Both the position numbers and the translations under genes were made by a program. From Fibrobacter sp. UWT2 (GTDB taxonomy: Bacteria > Fibrobacterota > Fibrobacteria > Fibrobacterales > Fibrobacteraceae), in the NCBI RefSeq assembly GCF_900142545.1, contig NZ_FRBF01000007.1, positions 1-64,000 on the forward strand: a DNA stretch of 64,000 nucleotides, written 5' to 3'. The notes below the pieces were generated by a model that was given only the letters and a program-made list of their open reading frames with translations, was not told the origin of the DNA and did not search any database. This document shows positions 54,732 through 64,000 of the stretch, piece after piece; within the stretch, counting starts at the first letter, position 1, and every line of letters begins with the position of its first letter.

Positions 54732-55646
54732 ATGCCAGGCATTATCCGATTTGCACCGAGTCCCACGGGCTTTTTACACGAAGGGCACTTGCTCTCCGCT
54801 CTTTACGTGTGGGCCGCCGCAAAAAAATGGGATCTCAAAATACACCTGCGCATCGAGGACCACGACCAAGGTCGTGCCCGCAAGGAATACATCGACGGTA
54901 TCCGCGAAGATCTCGCCTGGCTCGGCTTCCGGTACGATAGCGAAAGCATTCAAAGTTCCCATTTTGATTTCTTTCAGAAAGTCCTCGACAAGCTTACCGC
55001 CAAAGGGCTCGTTTACCCTTGCACCTGCAGCCGCAAGCAGTTGCAATCCGAAAACCCCATCAGCGAAACCGGCGAGGTGATTTATCAAGGGAAATGTTTT
55101 TTTAGACGAGAGACGAAAGACGAGAGACGAGAGATAAATTTACCGCACAATCTTCGGATTGTTATTCCAGACAAAGTAATCAACTGGCACGACGAACGTC
55201 TCGGCGACTTTAGCGAAAATCCCAAGCTTCAATGTGGCGATTTCCCGATCCGCGACCGCGACGGTTTCTGGACCTATCAATTCGCCGTCTGCATCGATGA
55301 CCTTACCGAAGGAATCACCCACATTGTCCGCGGCGAAGACATCCGCAATTCCACCGCCCGCCAAATTGCACTTTCCCAGCTGATTGCCGATACCTGCCAA
55401 GACGAACCGAGTCTTCGCATTCCTCCGTACACGCGCCAGCTGTATTTGCACCACCCCCTGATTGTGGATTCCAGCGGAAAAAAACTTTCCAAACGCGAGC
55501 ACGCCTATAGCCTCCGCCAAGACAAAGACGCCGGTAAAACACCGCCGGAAATCCTCGGGCAAATCCTATACAAAGCGGGATTTTTGTCAAACAATACCCC
55601 TACAGCGCTAGAACAGGCGATTACAATCGTAGCAAAGCGACTTTAA
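54732..55646 (+). CDS. gluQ: Glutamyl-Q tRNA(Asp) synthetase
   Basis: GluQ-RS attaches glutamate to queuosine in tRNA-Asp. The 304-residue protein has the shortened GluRS architecture: RFAPSPTGFLHEGHLLSAL (HxGH motif), zinc-site cysteines (CTC and GKC), and KKLSKREHAYSL as the KMSKS equivalent. There is no anticodon-binding domain, as usual. ATG at 54732 is taken because family homology starts there; the frame opens at 54678. A tandem 7-bp repeat inside the gene (55104-55131) encodes a charged insert at residues 125-134, just after the last zinc cysteine. It diverges from the M16-like gene. Confidence 0.9.
   Translation: MPGIIRFAPSPTGFLHEGHLLSALYVWAAAKKWDLKIHLRIEDHDQGRARKEYIDGIREDLAWLGFRYDSESIQSSHFDFFQKVLDKLTAKGLVYPCTCSRKQLQSENPISETGEVIYQGKCFFRRETKDERREINLPHNLRIVIPDKVINWHDERLGDFSENPKLQCGDFPIRDRDGFWTYQFAVCIDDLTEGITHIVRGEDIRNSTARQIALSQLIADTCQDEPSLRIPPYTRQLYLHHPLIVDSSGKKLSKREHAYSLRQDKDAGKTPPEILGQILYKAGFLSNNTPTALEQAITIVAKRL
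55104..55131 (+). repeat. Four tandem heptanucleotides inside gluQ
   Basis: Units are AGACGAG, AGACGAA, AGACGAG, AGACGAG (28 bp), followed by AGAT. They encode RRETKDERRE, a charged segment placed between the zinc cysteine and the next conserved strand. The array has the same number of units and unit length as the one before ileS. Confidence 0.8.
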
Positions 55647-55715: not shown

Positions 55716-58700
55716 ATGTCTTCACCTTCTGCTATTGTCGCCAAAATTCGGCAAGAAGCCGCCCTCTTTGATTCCAAAGACCGTTTACTCTGCTTTTCGA
55801 CCAAAAATGACTTACAGTCCCCTTTGATTACCGAAGCAGGAGACCTTTTCTACGAAAAGTGGTTGCAGGCTCATGGGCCCCTTCCCCTGGAATCCTTCTT
55901 CCAGGTTTCCCAGAATTTTACCGCGCAGCAAAAGATAACCGCCCTGGATTCCATTACGGCGGTTTTACGTCATAAGCTTGACGACTATGGTGAAACAGAC
56001 CTTTACCTGCTTCTCGGCTTTTTAAAGTGGGATGGCAACGCCCTGGCCCCGAGCCTTTTGGTTCCGCTGGACTTCGATCCGACTAAGAATACGGTTTCCA
56101 TTTCGGCCCGTCAACCCATCGAAAACGTAATCCTGCGCGAACGCCTCAAAGACTCCATCGCGCTCCCCTCCGCCGAAGACGCCATCATCAACGGCAAGTT
56201 CAGCCTGCTCCTCTATTTTTCACAATTTGAAAAAGCCATCGCAGGCGAACGCAACTGGCGCTTCACCCGTCATGGGGTTTGTCTCGGATTCTTCAATTCC
56301 AACCTGCTGAATCTCAAGAAACGTTATGACCTGGGCTTTTCGGAAAAGGCCATCGCAGGCAATCCGATTCTTAATTCGCTTCTTCACGAGGATGGCTTCC
56401 AGACCCAGGAATCCCTGTTTGAAGAAAAGGACTTCGACAAGGTCTTCTCCCCTGCTGATCACCACTTCCTATACACCACCGATTCCCACACCAACAAGGT
56501 GACGGTGGATGCCGAAAACGAAAGCGCCTGTGCCTACGCGATCCAGGCTCTTCCCGGCACCGAGAAAATGAAGGTGGCAGCAAACATTGTGGCAGACCAA
56601 GTGGCCCAAGGCAAGAAGGTGCTGGTGGTTCACAAGCGTGCCGTCAGCAAGCGAAACTTCCATAACGCATGGCGTCCGCCCTTCCGCAGTTTCCCAGATT
56701 CCAACCGCAGTGAACTGGAACAGAAAATCCGCACCATGCGGAACAACTTCCTGGAATACTACGACGCCGTCAACAAGCCCATTCCGCCCACCAACGTCGT
56801 GCTGGCGGACTTGTTGCGCGAATTCAAGGACGTCAGACCGCCCAAAAAGAAATTCCCCGACCGCATTTTCCGCGGCATCAATCAGCTTGATTTCAACGGA
56901 TATCAGGAACTCAAGAAAGACATCCAAACCTTGTCTGAATTGTACTTCGACAAGGAGGGCGTCAACGCCCGCAGGGCTTTCCAGGGAGTCAAGGTAGCAA
57001 GCCTGTCCCCAGAACAGCAGCAAGTCCTTGCCGAAGAACTCCGCTGCGCCGCAGACCGCGCCAGAGAACTGGAACCGGTCATCAAGAAGATGGAATCGAC
57101 AGGACTCTTCCCCACCGGAATGTTCCTGTCGGGAATGGTCGACATCCTCGAACTCCTGCGCGACAACTTTGACGAAAATACGCCGACCTTCGAAGACTGG
57201 CAGCTTCGTAGCCATAACTGGCACGCCTACAAGGACACGCTGACCCACCTCCCCGAAGCTGGCGACCAATGGGTGCGGTACCGCAGGCAGACCTCCGACA
57301 TTTACACCGACAACGCCGTCGATGAAAACATCCAAAACGCACGCGACGACTTTGCCGAATGCCAGAATATTTCACTCAAGGGACTTTCGGAACGCTATCG
57401 TTCTTCCCGCAAGCGTTTGCTGCAAGTGATTCGCAAACCCAAGACCGTCGACTCCGACGCCAAGCTTCTGGATTTGATCGACACCTTATTGGAACTGCAG
57501 GCAAACAAGAAGTCTTACAAGGAAAGCGCCGTGCTGGGCAATCACCTGCTCGGACGCGACTGGCACTTTGAAGGCTCTAACTGGGTCGAACTGAACCAGA
57601 AGATCCAATACATTTACGAATTCCGCGATCAGCACAAGGACGATCCCAAGCTGGACTTGCTCCTGCAGTTACTGGAACAATGGCATAACTTCAAAGAGCT
57701 GCAACCGGAATTGTCGAACCTCTGGAATTCCGTCATCGAGCTCCAGACGTCCATCAAGCAAATCAACAAGGACATGCAGCTTGAAACTCCGCTGGAAAGT
57801 CTGAGCATCGACAAGTGGCTCGGCCAGATTCAGTCCTGGAGCGACAACTGGAACCATTTCGATATTCATCTGCAATTGGCCGCTCATTTCCAGAAAATGG
57901 AAAGCTACTGCGGCATGGCCCTCGTCGAATACCTCAAGGACCCCGATAACGCAGATGCCGATTTCAGCAACGCCCTCGCCCACTATTGGACCGGGGCCCA
58001 GATTCAGGCGGCGACCAAAGCCTGCCCGAGCCTGTTCTCGGAAAGTCCGAAGGCTAAGGCTCAAAAGAGCAAGGAATACCGCACGCTCTTGGACCAGTTC
58101 TCGGGTGCAAACTTCAAGGAACTGCACAACGCCGTCGACAACGATCCGAGCGTTCTTACTGAAGTTTCTCTCGCCGATGCACTTCGCATTTCCGACAAGC
58201 AATCCTTCGACATCACCATCATACTCGATGCCGACGCGATCTCCCTTGCCGAAGCCACGCCGATTTTGCTTGCCGCTCCCAAGACCATTCTTGTGGGCGA
58301 CCCCCACAACCCGAGTCACGAATACCTGCCCATCGATGCCTTCCACGAAGAATCCGTTGCACGCAACCCCTTCTTCCAAGAAAGCATCCTCACGGCAGCC
58401 CTTCGCCAGGGAGCACCGACTCGCGAGCTCTGGTTCTCGGCTCAGTACAGCGATCCCGCCATTGTAAGCTTTGCCAACGAACGCATCTACAACAACGGAA
58501 TCAAGCAACTTCCGCCGGCAAACAATGATATTTTCAAGGGCATTTCAATCAAGGAAGTCCCCGACAAGATCGAAGCGATTGCGCTTACCGCCATACGCCA
58601 TGCAGAACGCCACCCCGAAAAGACTCTCGGAATCATCGCATTCCACCAGTCCACCTGTCAAGAAATCGAAGACAGCATCCGGGCCAAGCTGATTGCAGGC

Positions 58701-59819
58701 ACTGCGGCGGCAGCCTTCTTCGCAAGACCCAACGCAGATATCCGCTACTTCGTGAAGACTCCCGAAAGAGCCGTGGACCAGTTCCGCGACACCATTCTCG
58801 TCTGTATCGAAGCCGAAGGCGCCAGCGGACTGGCCGCCGACCACAAGGTCACGGTTTGTTCGACCCTCGCAAAGCGAGAACTCCGAGCCTTTACCACAGA
58901 ACTGGATCTCTCGAAGATTGCATCCCAAAAGAATTCGCTCTTCCGCGAATGGATCAACTTCATGCAGTCCAGACAGTACGATCCCGTCGTGGACATCGAA
59001 CCTGCAGAATCTCCGCTCCGCAACGAAGTCATTCAGGTTCTTAAAGACGCGAATATCGTCGTGCAAGAATATTCCTGCAAGGGCGGAATTCCCGTGGGCC
59101 CGGTCGTGGTTGACGCGAACAACCCCACCCATTTCTTGTCCCTTATCGAAGACGACTGCACGACGGAACGTTTCCGCGATTCTATCGAAGACCGCGATTA
59201 CGTTCGTCCGCTAATCCTAAAACAATTCGGCTGGAAAGTCATGAACGTCTGGTTGCCGTTCTGGTTCATGTCTAATCAGGACGAAGTCGGCCACCTGATT
59301 GCAACCATCGCCATCGAACAGAGCGTGGCGCCCCCGCCCACAACGGAACCTGATGAAGACGATGGATCCGACGTGTTCGATGCCGCCTCCAAGCCCATGA
59401 CGGAACCCTACGTGGTGCAGCACCCCAAGATCGAGGGAACCGCCCACGACAAGCCTATCGCAGAACTTCCCATTGCCGCGCTCATTACGCAGCTCAAGTT
59501 CTACGTCGACAGCGAAGCGCCCATTCACGAAGAAATATTGAAGCAGCGCGTTCTGGAACTGCACCATGTAGACAGGGCAGGTCCTGTGCTACAGCAAGTT
59601 CTGACCGAAGCAATCCACCAGGGTCTGCAAAAGAAACGCTTTATCAAGACCGGACCGTTCTACTACTCACTCAAGGCCAAGGATTTGGTCGCACGCAACC
59701 GTTCGAACCGTCCGGACTTTGAACGCAAGCTTGCCTACGTAGCTCCTGAAGAACGCGCCCTCATGCCGCAGAGCATGGACGAACATGCCCTGAAACAGGC
59801 CATGGGACTTTTGGAATAG
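55716..59819 (+). CDS. Degenerate DUF4011/DUF3320-type helicase-nuclease homolog
   Basis: The 1367-residue protein follows the order of DUF4011-type SF1 helicases with a C-terminal nuclease, but the catalytic motifs are altered. About 95-118 (LYLLLGFLKWDG, PSLLVPLDFD) is the DUF4011-like start. The Walker A slot (277-286) reads QALPGTEKMK where GPPGTGKS/T is expected; only Lys284 is kept. The Walker B slot (831-840) reads FDITIILDAD in place of FDxxIxDEAS. GDPHNP replaces GDPxQLPP near 861. The nuclease-like region (about 1098-1180) has GIPVGPVVVD for the usual YRIDLxV and LIEDDC for VECDG. DUF3320-like residues end it (about 1247-1320). The frame is open and codon use looks normal, so the protein is probably made. 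Expected role: structural or nucleic-acid-binding, not enzymatic. Confidence 0.72.
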   Translation: MSSPSAIVAKIRQEAALFDSKDRLLCFSTKNDLQSPLITEAGDLFYEKWLQAHGPLPLESFFQVSQNFTAQQKITALDSITAVLRHKLDDYGETDLYLLLGFLKWDGNALAPSLLVPLDFDPTKNTVSISARQPIENVILRERLKDSIALPSAEDAIINGKFSLLLYFSQFEKAIAGERNWRFTRHGVCLGFFNSNLLNLKKRYDLGFSEKAIAGNPILNSLLHEDGFQTQESLFEEKDFDKVFSPADHHFLYTTDSHTNKVTVDAENESACAYAIQALPGTEKMKVAANIVADQVAQGKKVLVVHKRAVSKRNFHNAWRPPFRSFPDSNRSELEQKIRTMRNNFLEYYDAVNKPIPPTNVVLADLLREFKDVRPPKKKFPDRIFRGINQLDFNGYQELKKDIQTLSELYFDKEGVNARRAFQGVKVASLSPEQQQVLAEELRCAADRARELEPVIKKMESTGLFPTGMFLSGMVDILELLRDNFDENTPTFEDWQLRSHNWHAYKDTLTHLPEAGDQWVRYRRQTSDIYTDNAVDENIQNARDDFAECQNISLKGLSERYRSSRKRLLQVIRKPKTVDSDAKLLDLIDTLLELQANKKSYKESAVLGNHLLGRDWHFEGSNWVELNQKIQYIYEFRDQHKDDPKLDLLLQLLEQWHNFKELQPELSNLWNSVIELQTSIKQINKDMQLETPLESLSIDKWLGQIQSWSDNWNHFDIHLQLAAHFQKMESYCGMALVEYLKDPDNADADFSNALAHYWTGAQIQAATKACPSLFSESPKAKAQKSKEYRTLLDQFSGANFKELHNAVDNDPSVLTEVSLADALRISDKQSFDITIILDADAISLAEATPILLAAPKTILVGDPHNPSHEYLPIDAFHEESVARNPFFQESILTAALRQGAPTRELWFSAQYSDPAIVSFANERIYNNGIKQLPPANNDIFKGISIKEVPDKIEAIALTAIRHAERHPEKTLGIIAFHQSTCQEIEDSIRAKLIAGTAAAAFFARPNADIRYFVKTPERAVDQFRDTILVCIEAEGASGLAADHKVTVCSTLAKRELRAFTTELDLSKIASQKNSLFREWINFMQSRQYDPVVDIEPAESPLRNEVIQVLKDANIVVQEYSCKGGIPVGPVVVDANNPTHFLSLIEDDCTTERFRDSIEDRDYVRPLILKQFGWKVMNVWLPFWFMSNQDEVGHLIATIAIEQSVAPPPTTEPDEDDGSDVFDAASKPMTEPYVVQHPKIEGTAHDKPIAELPIAALITQLKFYVDSEAPIHEEILKQRVLELHHVDRAGPVLQQVLTEAIHQGLQKKRFIKTGPFYYSLKAKDLVARNRSNRPDFERKLAYVAPEERALMPQSMDEHALKQAMGLLE

Positions 59820-59897: not shown

Positions 59898-60299
59898 CTA
59901 TTTTACCTTCACAACAAAAGCCGTGATATTGTAAGCAGACAATTCTCGAGCCTTGTCTTCGGCAGCCTTCTTGCTACCCCATCCACCGCCGCGGAGCTTG
60001 TAGAAGGGAGCATCGAACACCACCTGAATGGAGTAACCGGTGCTTGCGGAAAGCTGCGCACGACGACGCTGGGCAGCATCAAAATCTGCCACCGATTCAA
60101 ACTGAAGCATATAGTAGCCATCAGACTTGGACGACTTGGCGGCAGCCTTCGGCACAGCCGATTCGTTCTTGACACTGTCGCGCAGAGACGCGCTCAAAGC
60201 AGGTTTGTATTCCCTGCCGCGGAAAAGGGTATCCAAATCGGTCGGTTCGGCGGCAAAGGCAACGGTGCACAGGCACAGGGCAAATAAAATCTTTCGCAT
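59898..60299 (-). CDS. Small secreted SPOR-like protein
   Basis: The 133-residue protein has a signal peptide (MRKILFALCLCTVAFA, cut after residue 16) and a SPOR-like domain (about 60-133): YYMLQFESVADFDAAQRRRA, FDAPFYKLRGGGWGSKKAAE and ITAFVVKVK. SPOR domains bind septal peptidoglycan that lacks stem peptides. It is monocistronic, follows the fibro-slime gene and has its own terminator. A role at the division site is inferred from the domain only. Confidence 0.8.
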   Translation of the reverse strand: MRKILFALCLCTVAFAAEPTDLDTLFRGREYKPALSASLRDSVKNESAVPKAAAKSSKSDGYYMLQFESVADFDAAQRRRAQLSASTGYSIQVVFDAPFYKLRGGGWGSKKAAEDKARELSAYNITAFVVKVK

Positions 60300-60359: not shown

Positions 60360-63300
60360 TTACTTTCCTGCATTCAGGTAGTCTGTAACAGGCTTCGGCG
60401 AACGCTTGATGCCCCATACAGAGGTAGATTCCTGCTTTGCATCCTTACCGGCAGAACCGAGCTTCACGTAGGAATTGAGCTTCACGATGTAGGCGCCAGT
60501 GCCCACCACGCGGCCCTTGTCAGAACGCATGTTCCAACCGATGAAGTAGTTGCGGTCATTACCGGCATCAATACAGGTACCGCCATTGAAGTACTGGATC
60601 TGCTTGCCGTCAGGACCAACAGCCGTGTTCTTCTTGTCGTCGCAGTAAATCTTCTGCTTCTTGCTGGCAACGTAGTTACCCAAGTTGGTGAAGTACTGCA
60701 CTTCGTAGTAGAAGAAGATGTCATCAGCAGTGACCTTAGCCCTATCTTCGTCGGAGAGGCCGTTGTACAGAGCGTACATATCAGCTTCGACGAAGTGACC
60801 CGGCCTACCGCCTTCAGCAGCGAAGACTTCGTTCTTGGTCATCGTGGTACGATAGCCGTTCACCGACACGGCAGGAACGTTATCGCCAGCCGGGACGTTA
60901 GCCGTAGAGGCAAACTTGTTTTCGTGCACAGCCTTGTTAGCGTCACCCGTCACAGGAATCCAGATAGACGGCAAGCGCTTGGTTTCCTTGTAACCCGTCG
61001 GAGAGTTCCAGACAAAGCCAGCATCAGCCGTAGAACGGATAGAGTCGGCACCACCAACGGTCAGATCCACATCGTCAGACCAAATGATGTTTGCAAGGTC
61101 ACCGGCCAGGCGTACATAGTCACCCACGTGCGGAGAAACGCTGCCGCGCATGTACATGAACTTGATACGGCCTTCGCCATTGGCAGCACCCAAAGCCGGA
61201 TCGCTCTGAGCGGTCACCACAGCGGAGGTGTTGCTCAAGGCAGAAGCATAGCGGGCATTGTCAGCCAGGTCAACTGCAGAATTCAGGTAGAAGTCCAGAG
61301 AGCTTCTCTTGTTGGAGGTGGTCACGAGCTTGACCGGTTCGGACATAATCACCACGAGGCTGTCGTAATCCGTCAGGTCGTCACCATTCTTAAGAGTACG
61401 CACTTCGGCACGCAGCGGCACCGGAGCAATACGGTCTGTCAAAGCACCGGAGAAGCCCTGCTTCACGTCACGGCCCTTGTCCTTGAACACGGCGTAAGAA
61501 TGAACCTTACCCACACCAGCAGTCTTGACGCTCTTGGAGAGTTGCAGATTGCCGATCGTGATCAAGTTGGAGCAGTAGCCGCCCACGCCATTGTATTCCG
61601 TCAGATTAGAGCAGTCAATGTTGCTCTTGTCAATCGTCAGCAAGGCGTTACAAGTAATCGAGACATCCTTCGGAATGTTGGAGTAGCCTTCTTCAACCGG
61701 ATTGTGTTCTTCGGCAGAAGCAGAATCCCACATCACGCAAATCTTAGTCGGCAAGGAGTCCTGATGGAGACGACGGTCGTAGTAGATTGCGATAGAGTCG
61801 CCAATACCATCCAGGTATTCCTGGCTCATGCTGAAGTAGGGTTCAGGAATCTTGTGTTCCAGAGAAGGTGTAGCACCATGAACGTCGAACACGTCAGCCA
61901 AGACCGGAATAGGTACCGGCGGTTCGCGGAAGTAAACCGGGCTGTATTCGGCCTGGACATAGTCATTCATTTCAGCCACGATCTTTGCCGGATTGTTCAC
62001 ACCCGGATCCGTATCCCAGCGATAGACCTTCAGAGAACGAATCGACACCGTAGCGTAGCCGTTTTCGAAAGCCACTTCTTCAGGGATAAAGTCAATACCC
62101 GGAGAGGTCAAGGAAACGCTGTTATGGACCTTAAAGCCATCGCACTCTGTCAAGCAGGGGGTATAGCTGCCGTCGGAATTGGGCTTCAGGATCACAAGGT
62201 AGAAGTCATAAATGGAACCAGACCAGTATTCTTCATAAGATCCATCGGCCTGAGCAGTCATGCCCTTGACAGCCGTGGGATTTTCGCCGGCTTCAGGAAT
62301 CTTTTCAACAAAGGAAATCTGCGGCAGGTAGAAGCTAATAGACATGGCCTTGTCACGACCAGTAACACTGATCTTGAATTCCTTGATGGCAGCATTCATT
62401 TCTTCCATCGGGACGGTCACGTACACGGTATCGACACCGGTTTCACCAATCTGGAGCTTGTCCGTTTCTCTAATTCTCGTGTAGGTTTCCGTTCCGAGGA
62501 GCGGATCCACGTCTCTCTTGTAGACAACCATAGCCTTGTCGTGAGAAAGTGTGTATTCAACACCCTTGGCATCTTCCGGATAAATTTCCACATCCTTGGT
62601 AGCGCCTTCGCCAGCAGCCACAGAAGAGATATAGACCGGAACTCTTTCACCAGCCATAGCGGAGGTCTGCAAGGTGTACTTGCCGCCCGGAATATCCACG
62701 CCGGTAGTATCCTTGGCAACGCCGTTAGCATAAACAACGTCCACTTCACCACTCATACGGAAGGTTGCCACCTTCTTGGTCTTGCCATCAATGTTGATGA
62801 ACAAAGTGTAGCGGCCACCGCCAAGGCAAACCTTGGACTTGTCCACCTTCGGAGAGGTCAGAGAGGTCAAGTCAATACCGCACTTGTACACATCCGGAAC
62901 AGAGACATTTTCAAAGCCAGGCACAGCCGGAGAGCTAATGGTGTTACCCTGGACCAAGGTGAAGGAAATGGGCAAGTTTGCATTCTTGATTTCTTCACCG
63001 CAGTACTTTTCTTCCTTTTCGTCACCGGTCATTGCAGAGGCGCAAGAGCCGTCACCCGTCTTGGTGTAGCAAATATCGTAAGACGTTTCAGCCGGATTGT
63101 CCTTGTTCTTGGTACCCTTCACATCGATAGCAGTCTTCTGCTGGATGTACATGTTCGTCTTGATACGAACGTTACTCATGGTCGTACGGCGGTCGCAGAA
63201 GAAGATATCGATATCATACTGGTTACCAACCGTCAGCAATTCACCATCATAGCCCTTGAATTTATCCAAATCCACATAACCCGGAGCGGCCAAGTGGGTA

Positions 63301-64000
63301 CCACCAAGGTCCACAGCGAGTTTGTTGTCAATGAACACCCAAATATCGTCGTCGCCGCGGAAGTTGAACTTCAGACCCGGCTTGTGGGTGAACTTAGCAT
63401 GAGATTCAAAGCAGTAATGCTGGTTTCTTTCAGCAGACCAACGATAAGAGGCGCCGGCAGTAGACTGATCCACTTCGGTATCGGTTCCTTCCTTGAAGAA
63501 GTGCCAACCGGTCGGAGCGCTATTAGAGCAAGACCAACCCATCACGCAAGTACCGGATGCACCACCGACAAAATCAATGGCGAAAGCCATTTCTTCATCA
63601 CTACCGGTATTGAACTTGCCTTCACATTCTTCACCACCGTCCCAACCGGGGCCGTTACAAAGAATATCAATCTTCGGCATACCTGTTGCCGGATCGATTT
63701 CGCGGAAGGCCGGGCCGTAGAACACGGGACCTTCGGCAGCACGTTTCGTACGAGCAGCTTTAAGCGGTTTCTGCAACGGGTCTGCAGCCAAGATGATTTC
63801 ATCTGTATTATTTTCAGCCGGATAGAATCCACCAGGGCCCTTGGCTCCCGGGCTGTGGTAGAAGTCAGAGTCGAATTCCCACTTACCGTCGTTAGAACGC
63901 TTGAACGGCATATCATAGCAGCTCTTTTCGTTCACGCCTTCGGCGTAGTTGAACATTTGATCAAAGAACGTGTCATTAATAAAGCAGGACTTACCCAAGG
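60360..64000 (-). CDS. Fibro-slime domain protein, 5' end outside window
   Basis: At least 1212 residues are visible; the frame stays open to the window edge, and the apparent TTG start at 63998 is probably internal, so the N-terminus and signal are missing. About residues 130-300 are a fibro-slime domain: FNFRGDDDIWVFIDNKLAVD and LGGTHL, then DIFFCDRRTTMSNVRIKTNM, a calcium-type PA14-like fold of Fibrobacter and Dictyostelium-related surface proteins. The rest is a string of beta-rich segments of about 100-150 residues. The tail (STSVWGIKRSPKPVTDYLNAGK) has no clear T9SS sorting signature. In Fibrobacter such proteins are linked to the cell surface and fibre attachment. Confidence 0.88.
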   Translation of the reverse strand, partial: LGKSCFINDTFFDQMFNYAEGVNEKSCYDMPFKRSNDGKWEFDSDFYHSPGAKGPGGFYPAENNTDEIILAADPLQKPLKAARTKRAAEGPVFYGPAFREIDPATGMPKIDILCNGPGWDGGEECEGKFNTGSDEEMAFAIDFVGGASGTCVMGWSCSNSAPTGWHFFKEGTDTEVDQSTAGASYRWSAERNQHYCFESHAKFTHKPGLKFNFRGDDDIWVFIDNKLAVDLGGTHLAAPGYVDLDKFKGYDGELLTVGNQYDIDIFFCDRRTTMSNVRIKTNMYIQQKTAIDVKGTKNKDNPAETSYDICYTKTGDGSCASAMTGDEKEEKYCGEEIKNANLPISFTLVQGNTISSPAVPGFENVSVPDVYKCGIDLTSLTSPKVDKSKVCLGGGRYTLFINIDGKTKKVATFRMSGEVDVVYANGVAKDTTGVDIPGGKYTLQTSAMAGERVPVYISSVAAGEGATKDVEIYPEDAKGVEYTLSHDKAMVVYKRDVDPLLGTETYTRIRETDKLQIGETGVDTVYVTVPMEEMNAAIKEFKISVTGRDKAMSISFYLPQISFVEKIPEAGENPTAVKGMTAQADGSYEEYWSGSIYDFYLVILKPNSDGSYTPCLTECDGFKVHNSVSLTSPGIDFIPEEVAFENGYATVSIRSLKVYRWDTDPGVNNPAKIVAEMNDYVQAEYSPVYFREPPVPIPVLADVFDVHGATPSLEHKIPEPYFSMSQEYLDGIGDSIAIYYDRRLHQDSLPTKICVMWDSASAEEHNPVEEGYSNIPKDVSITCNALLTIDKSNIDCSNLTEYNGVGGYCSNLITIGNLQLSKSVKTAGVGKVHSYAVFKDKGRDVKQGFSGALTDRIAPVPLRAEVRTLKNGDDLTDYDSLVVIMSEPVKLVTTSNKRSSLDFYLNSAVDLADNARYASALSNTSAVVTAQSDPALGAANGEGRIKFMYMRGSVSPHVGDYVRLAGDLANIIWSDDVDLTVGGADSIRSTADAGFVWNSPTGYKETKRLPSIWIPVTGDANKAVHENKFASTANVPAGDNVPAVSVNGYRTTMTKNEVFAAEGGRPGHFVEADMYALYNGLSDEDRAKVTADDIFFYYEVQYFTNLGNYVASKKQKIYCDDKKNTAVGPDGKQIQYFNGGTCIDAGNDRNYFIGWNMRSDKGRVVGTGAYIVKLNSYVKLGSAGKDAKQESTSVWGIKRSPKPVTDYLNAGK

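Follow-up and report, generated by a model that had tools for sequence, protein, structure and literature searches.

The stretch of DNA analysed here, called the window below, comprises positions 1 to 64,000 (64,000 nucleotides, nt) of contig NZ_FRBF01000007.1 of Fibrobacter sp. UWT2. On its forward strand, positions 55716..59819 hold an open reading frame (ORF) with an ATG start for a protein of 1367 amino acids (aa), supported by profile matches and orthologues, which belongs to the DUF4011 helicase-nuclease family and is referred to as the pseudoenzyme. The protein was compared with the profiles of PADLOC PDC-S37 (a candidate system), NCBIfam NF058533 (anti-phage protein ProA), Hhe and Pfam. 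PDC-S37 gave the best match (377.6 bits, E-value 3.7e-113); ProA scored 258.1 bits (1.5e-76), with the equivalog cut-off of 1500 bits not reached, and Hhe was remoter than either (67.8 bits, 3.3e-19; cut-off of 2000 bits not reached). Pfam DUF4011, MTES_1575 and DUF3320 were matched in the family order, each under its gathering score. This profile similarity along the domain order confirms, at the level of sequence, that the protein is a member of the family that joins DUF4011, a superfamily 1 (SF1) helicase, a Vsr-like nuclease and a DUF3320 winged helix, and it agrees with a first-pass annotation that had described a 1367-codon open frame along the full family order. The architecture has been published as an SF-I helicase, a Vsr restriction endonuclease and a winged helix-turn-helix overlapping DUF3320 (PMC3710099).

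The DUF4011-like N-terminal domain spans residues 66-144 (55911..56147; all features of the gene lie on the forward strand) and scores 21.6 bits against a Pfam cut-off of 22.2. A helical insert occupies residues 476-660 (57141..57695). The Vsr/MTES_1575-like nuclease domain, seen in the alignment and with a Pfam score of 30.9 bits against 38.2, covers residues 1103-1198 (59022..59309), and the C-terminal region (59421..59816) contains the DUF3320-like winged helix, with its Pfam match at residues 1264-1292. In the sister-genus orthologue L086 both DUF4011 (41.7 bits) and MTES_1575 (57.3 bits) rise above the Pfam threshold. A PDB sequence search with the 1367-aa protein gave no useful match, and a promoter and terminator scan found no clear sigma-70 promoter ahead of the gene.

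The state of the catalytic motifs was read by aligning the protein with L060, L061 and L062, three intact members of the family that come from other Fibrobacter genomes and all carry GPPGTGKS, DEAS and GD(S/P)KQ. Every one of the SF1 motifs I-VI is replaced in the window protein. Motif I or Walker A (residues 278-285, 56547..56570) reads ALPGTEKM instead of GPPGTGKS, motif II or Walker B (837-840, 58224..58235) LDAD instead of DEAS, and motif III (861-865, 58296..58310) GDPHN instead of GDSKQ. Motif IV (905-915, 58428..58460) has changed from LMWHYRSRSEQ to LWFSAQYSDPA (WHYRS to FSAQY), motif V (1014-1026, 58755..58793) from KNLETVQGDERDT to KTPERAVDQFRDT (core VQGDERD to AVDQFRD), and motif VI (1044-1056, 58845..58883) from RLNVAVTRAKYNL to KVTVCSTLAKREL (core VTRAK to STLAK), where L1051 takes the place of the arginine. 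The set of Vsr-like nuclease residues (R-x-D, E-C-D-G, H) is broken as well: RID has become PVG, with G1128 at the position of the aspartate, and ECDG has become EDDC, in which E1145 and D1147 are retained, and the downstream histidine is lost. The first-pass annotation had listed Walker A, Walker B, GDPxQ and the nuclease positions as all replaced; this stands for the helicase motifs and RID, but not for the ECDG box, which keeps its E and D.

No intact Walker motif was found elsewhere in the protein. The pattern GxxxxGK[ST] is absent from the whole window protein and from the helicase position in 62 orthologues; a single match in the partial g18 copy L096 lies outside that position and was taken as chance. 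All 62 scanned orthologues are motif-dead. Within the genus the only invariant part of the P-loop is its PG; most members have K284, and one Fibrobacter clade has W at this position (LPGTDW). Among the sister genera, g18 and g20 show PPGT(FAF/LLF)E (PPGTFAFE, PPGTLLFE), in which the lysine is lost, g19 and g23 mostly PPGS-x-K-x-E, and g24 LPGTD(G/N)GK. Taken on these alignments, a non-catalytic state of the pseudoenzyme is strongly supported.

The structure was predicted as two overlapping parts, residues 1-1200 and 791-1367. AlphaFold2 modelled the first, with 44 sequences, at a mean predicted local distance difference test (pLDDT) score of 89.6 and a predicted template modelling (pTM) score of 0.74. 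Foldseek searches with this model returned Aquarius, Dna2, Senataxin, Upf1, IGHMBP2 and Sen1, all of them SF1B helicases. Owing to the large insert, the structures superposed only loosely at the global level (template modelling score, TM, 0.14-0.29 on the query). The second part reached a pLDDT of 81.9 and had the same structural neighbours. The dead protein is hence predicted to maintain the SF1B helicase fold.

The frame is nevertheless under strong purifying selection despite its dead motifs, as the first-pass annotation had supposed. In ten pairs the Nei-Gojobori ratio of nonsynonymous to synonymous divergence (dN/dS) was 0.028-0.088, well below 1, at synonymous divergence (dS) of up to ~1. 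The smallest values were those of the C-terminus (0.00-0.04 for most pairs), the most constrained part of the protein, and of the insert 476-660. For comparison, the intact members provide a small reference set of only two lineages, L060 versus L061/L062. Between these, identity is 66% in the P-loop region (266-320) and 49% in the motif IV-VI stretch (941-1085), as against 16% in the insert and 15% in the C-terminus. In comparisons across the genera of the dead clade, the corresponding figures are 33% and 29% for the two motor regions, and 40% for the insert, 41% for the nuclease-like domain and 53% for the C-terminus. On this comparison with two intact lineages, constraint is inverted: the intact relatives keep the motor, whereas the dead clade keeps the helical insert, the nuclease-like domain and the C-terminal winged-helix region. 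It can be argued from this that the target of selection is now the binding surfaces, not the motor.

The gene was present in all 37 Fibrobacter genomes of a first sample, and nearly all of them had the frame at full length. When the genus was searched with a profile, 78 of 80 genomes proved to carry it, normally as one copy each; one of these carriers (G014) holds just a short piece, and the two genomes lacking it are only 65% and 71% complete. It occurs in 40 out of 40 Fibrobacter genomes of at least 90% completeness and at most 5% contamination. Orthologues of ~1300-1400 aa exist in the sister genera g18, g19, g20, g22, g23 and g24 of the same family; the search in g15, g16, g17 and g21 found none, with only a short match in G098 of g17. 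Recent loss of the motifs in a single strain is ruled out, the dead state being common to seven genera. Intact family members, on the other hand, were found in three of the 168 genomes of the phylum sample, all in Fibrobacter and all alongside a dead copy: G032 (L060, at G032:C2), G132 (L061, at G132:C1) and G006 (L062, at G006:C109). L061 scores 1659.9 bits with ProA, above the cut-off of 1500. A 1540-aa ORF in L225 (G150:C27:40500-47500) has an intact Walker A, GPPGTGKT, together with DEASQ, and matches the helicase half of PDC-S37; it is a further large SF1 helicase, possibly of a different defence family.

The pseudoenzyme gene follows gluQ, a gene of the glutamyl-Q tRNA(Asp) synthetase type (54732..55646, forward strand; Pfam tRNA-synt_1c, synteny), which ends 69 nt upstream. 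This gene directly precedes the pseudoenzyme, on the same strand, at every locus tested in the genus and in five of the six sister genera, g20 being the exception. Downstream lie a convergent gene with a SPOR domain (59898..60299, reverse strand; Pfam SPOR), a conserved neighbour by synteny, and within the window a fibro-slime gene (60360-63998, reverse strand); both are often found downstream of the pseudoenzyme in the synteny comparison. Descent was followed with a ptsI tree, in which all carriers fall into one clade (support 100/99) that includes one genome without the gene, G165. In this member of g24 (94% complete; locus L114, G165:C143) gluQ is present and is followed by other genes. The pseudoenzyme tree separates the dead clade from the intact members at 100/100 and matches the ptsI groupings (g22 with g23 and g19; g18 with g20; g1), while g24 sits on a long branch apart from its ptsI position. 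The sporadic, mobile and island-associated distribution by which defence systems are recognised is not seen, the gene being found in every good genome of the genus and in synteny. The defence-island setting that the first-pass annotation had brought in from the family is therefore inapplicable, since the pseudoenzyme belongs to the core genome and keeps its syntenic place after gluQ.

Two further features of the neighbourhood were observed. Inside gluQ, just after EVIYQGKC (window positions 55100-55140), lies an insertion hotspot. The window copy carries a heptamer-type repeat (AGACGAGAGACGAAAG...) in frame, which reads RRETKDERRE; the insert of L037 belongs to the same repeat family, and L048 and L112 carry different repeat-like inserts. 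For a 20-mer of the repeat, this genome contains 43 near matches, and a reversed-letter control gave 0. The pattern suggests that dispersed repeats have been inserted in frame, more than once, at one site of a tRNA-synthetase-like gene. Antisense to the fibro-slime gene runs a very long open frame (60795-63998), similar to several other long antisense frames in the window, and this is probably an effect of composition.

We consider it probable that the gene encodes an ancient, vertically inherited and domesticated double pseudoenzyme that works as a nucleic-acid-binding or complex-building scaffold in a cellular job. According to this model, the ancestor of the seven-genus clade would have held a single-protein helicase-nuclease of the anti-phage type, with DUF4011, SF1B helicase, Vsr-like nuclease and winged helix. 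The chemistry of motor and nuclease would have been lost before the clade split, and the inactivated gene would have become a fixed part of the core chromosome, placed after gluQ. Mechanistically the nearest precedent is RecC, a single protein that uses inactive SF1 helicase domains together with an inactive nuclease domain to bind DNA, guide it and read it (PMC1185551). By analogy, the inactivated motor and nuclease of the pseudoenzyme may now serve as such a scaffold; the helical insert and the winged helix would form its recognition surface, and the job may be the maintenance of cellular DNA or RNA rather than phage killing. More tentatively, a single-gene anti-phage helicase-nuclease could have been captured by an ancestor within the Fibrobacter family, lost both activities and been exapted to a new core, perhaps conditionally essential nucleic-acid scaffold; it would then represent an independent RecC-like subunit on an Upf1-type frame, with a partner protein.

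Some observations weigh against the scaffold model. The window protein is acidic overall (isoelectric point 5.5), and its nuclease-like domain exceeds that of the intact members in acidity, which does not favour nucleic-acid binding. G165, without the gene, shows that the pseudoenzyme has been dispensable at least once. Copies in the genus are disrupted in two cases, G027 (L025, G027:C128) with one in-frame TAG, and G116 (L194, G116:C9) with a frame break near residue 220 that splits the sequence into two overlapping ORFs (359 and 1168 aa); either disruption may stem from an assembly error. These two copies are also what could be put forward for a decaying pseudogene held open by chance. Such decay is extremely improbable given dN/dS of 0.03-0.09 at the dS reached and intact frames of 1300-1400 aa in seven genera, and for the clade as a whole pseudogene status is ruled out by dN/dS and distribution. 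A clear pseudogene state in close relatives, which would have undone the first-pass annotation, was not found, frames there being intact apart from these two copies. Finally, five acidic residues (D1133, E1145, D1147, E1158 and D1159) do not vary across the genus set, which leaves room for a migrated metal site. Remaining chemistry, with ATP bound through the degenerate P-loop or the nuclease site moved to these residues, of which E1145 and D1147 stem from the old ECDG box, would also fit the invariant PG and the K284 of most genus members, and migration of PD-(D/E)xK residues has precedent (PMC1185551). We regard it as quite unlikely, however, since the lysine is lost in one Fibrobacter clade and in g18/g20, since the motif II aspartate, the motif III glutamine and the arginines of motifs IV and VI are all gone, and since the motor regions are less constrained than the insert and the C-terminus, the opposite of the intact members.

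A non-catalytic role could also lie within defence, the protein acting as a sensor or adaptor for phage nucleic acid or protein that signals to another effector. Every profile relative is indeed a proven or candidate anti-phage protein. The pseudoenzyme is, however, core, bound to a single locus, vertically inherited and slowly evolving, in which mobile defence genes differ, and no conserved defence partner adjoins it, the neighbours being gluQ, the SPOR gene and fibro-slime proteins; the rarity of intact family members speaks against this role as well, and we consider it unlikely. Regulation of co-resident intact DUF4011 proteins is ruled out because these occur in so few genomes that the pseudoenzyme cannot be their dedicated regulator. 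Nothing was found to support a decoy role, which the first-pass annotation had also raised. The neighbourhood suggests another role, one shared with GluQ in translation or tRNA biology; the protein might, for example, be an RNA-binding scaffold tied to the queuosine modification of tRNA(Asp). The adjacency to gluQ is long-lived over the clade, and the closest solved folds are Upf1-type SF1B helicases of RNA and DNA. Against this, gluQ is present without the pseudoenzyme in G165 and in g16, G160 of g20 keeps the pseudoenzyme with no adjacent gluQ and no strong GluQ match anywhere, and adjacency by itself is weak evidence. A partnership with GluQ is accordingly rather improbable.

Among known systems, PDC-S37/ProA comes closest, sharing DUF4011, an SF1 helicase split by a helical insert, the MTES_1575 nuclease and the DUF3320 winged helix in the same order; the pseudoenzyme differs in that all helicase motifs and the nuclease aspartate are replaced and in being a fixed core gene, not a sporadic one. 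The anti-phage protein Hhe (DUF4011-helicase-Vsr) has the same superfamily architecture and a significant but weak profile match, yet its catalytic residues are lost in the pseudoenzyme. RecC of RecBCD, like AddB-type dead helicase domains, also combines inactive SF1 helicase and nuclease domains in one protein, but RecC is UvrD/RecB-like and the pseudoenzyme an Upf1-like SF1B protein of another family. A Pfam search gave no match to PF04257 (RecC family) in the window protein. Separate PF04257 genes occur in 17 of 18 genomes and RecB-like genes in 18 of 18. Because RecB- and RecC-type genes are found in carriers and non-carriers alike, replacement of RecC or AddB is ruled out, and the pseudoenzyme is no RecC substitute. 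The PriA of Deinococcus radiodurans is a pseudohelicase that has no ATPase activity and has kept DNA and partner binding (PMC4504706). There, too, helicase motifs were lost lineage-wide and the protein was retained, but it belongs to another helicase superfamily, lacks a nuclease domain and comes from a parent that was already a housekeeping protein. In Pseudomonas aeruginosa a DUF4011 gene flanking cDHS1 is likewise a core gene with a single fixed position in the species (PMC10250203), but one next to a defence hotspot, which the Fibrobacter pseudoenzyme is not. Searches of an open-access library on DUF4011, DUF3320, PDC-S37 and Fibrobacter defence brought up no report of this gene or of a doubly inactivated DUF4011 protein. 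The family was already known, and the catalytic state and core-gene status of the pseudoenzyme are apparently new.

A practical caution is that relaxed profile-based defence annotation could report the pseudoenzyme as part of the defence repertoire of every Fibrobacter genome. For the little-known DUF4011/ProA/Hhe family, the protein offers a natural separation-of-function mutant, whose preserved helical insert, nuclease-like surface and winged helix point to the non-catalytic functions of the family. Rapid gain and loss is the usual pattern for defence genes. In this clade, one of them looks to have been permanently domesticated as a core gene after losing both activities, a clade-wide exaptation from immunity to housekeeping.

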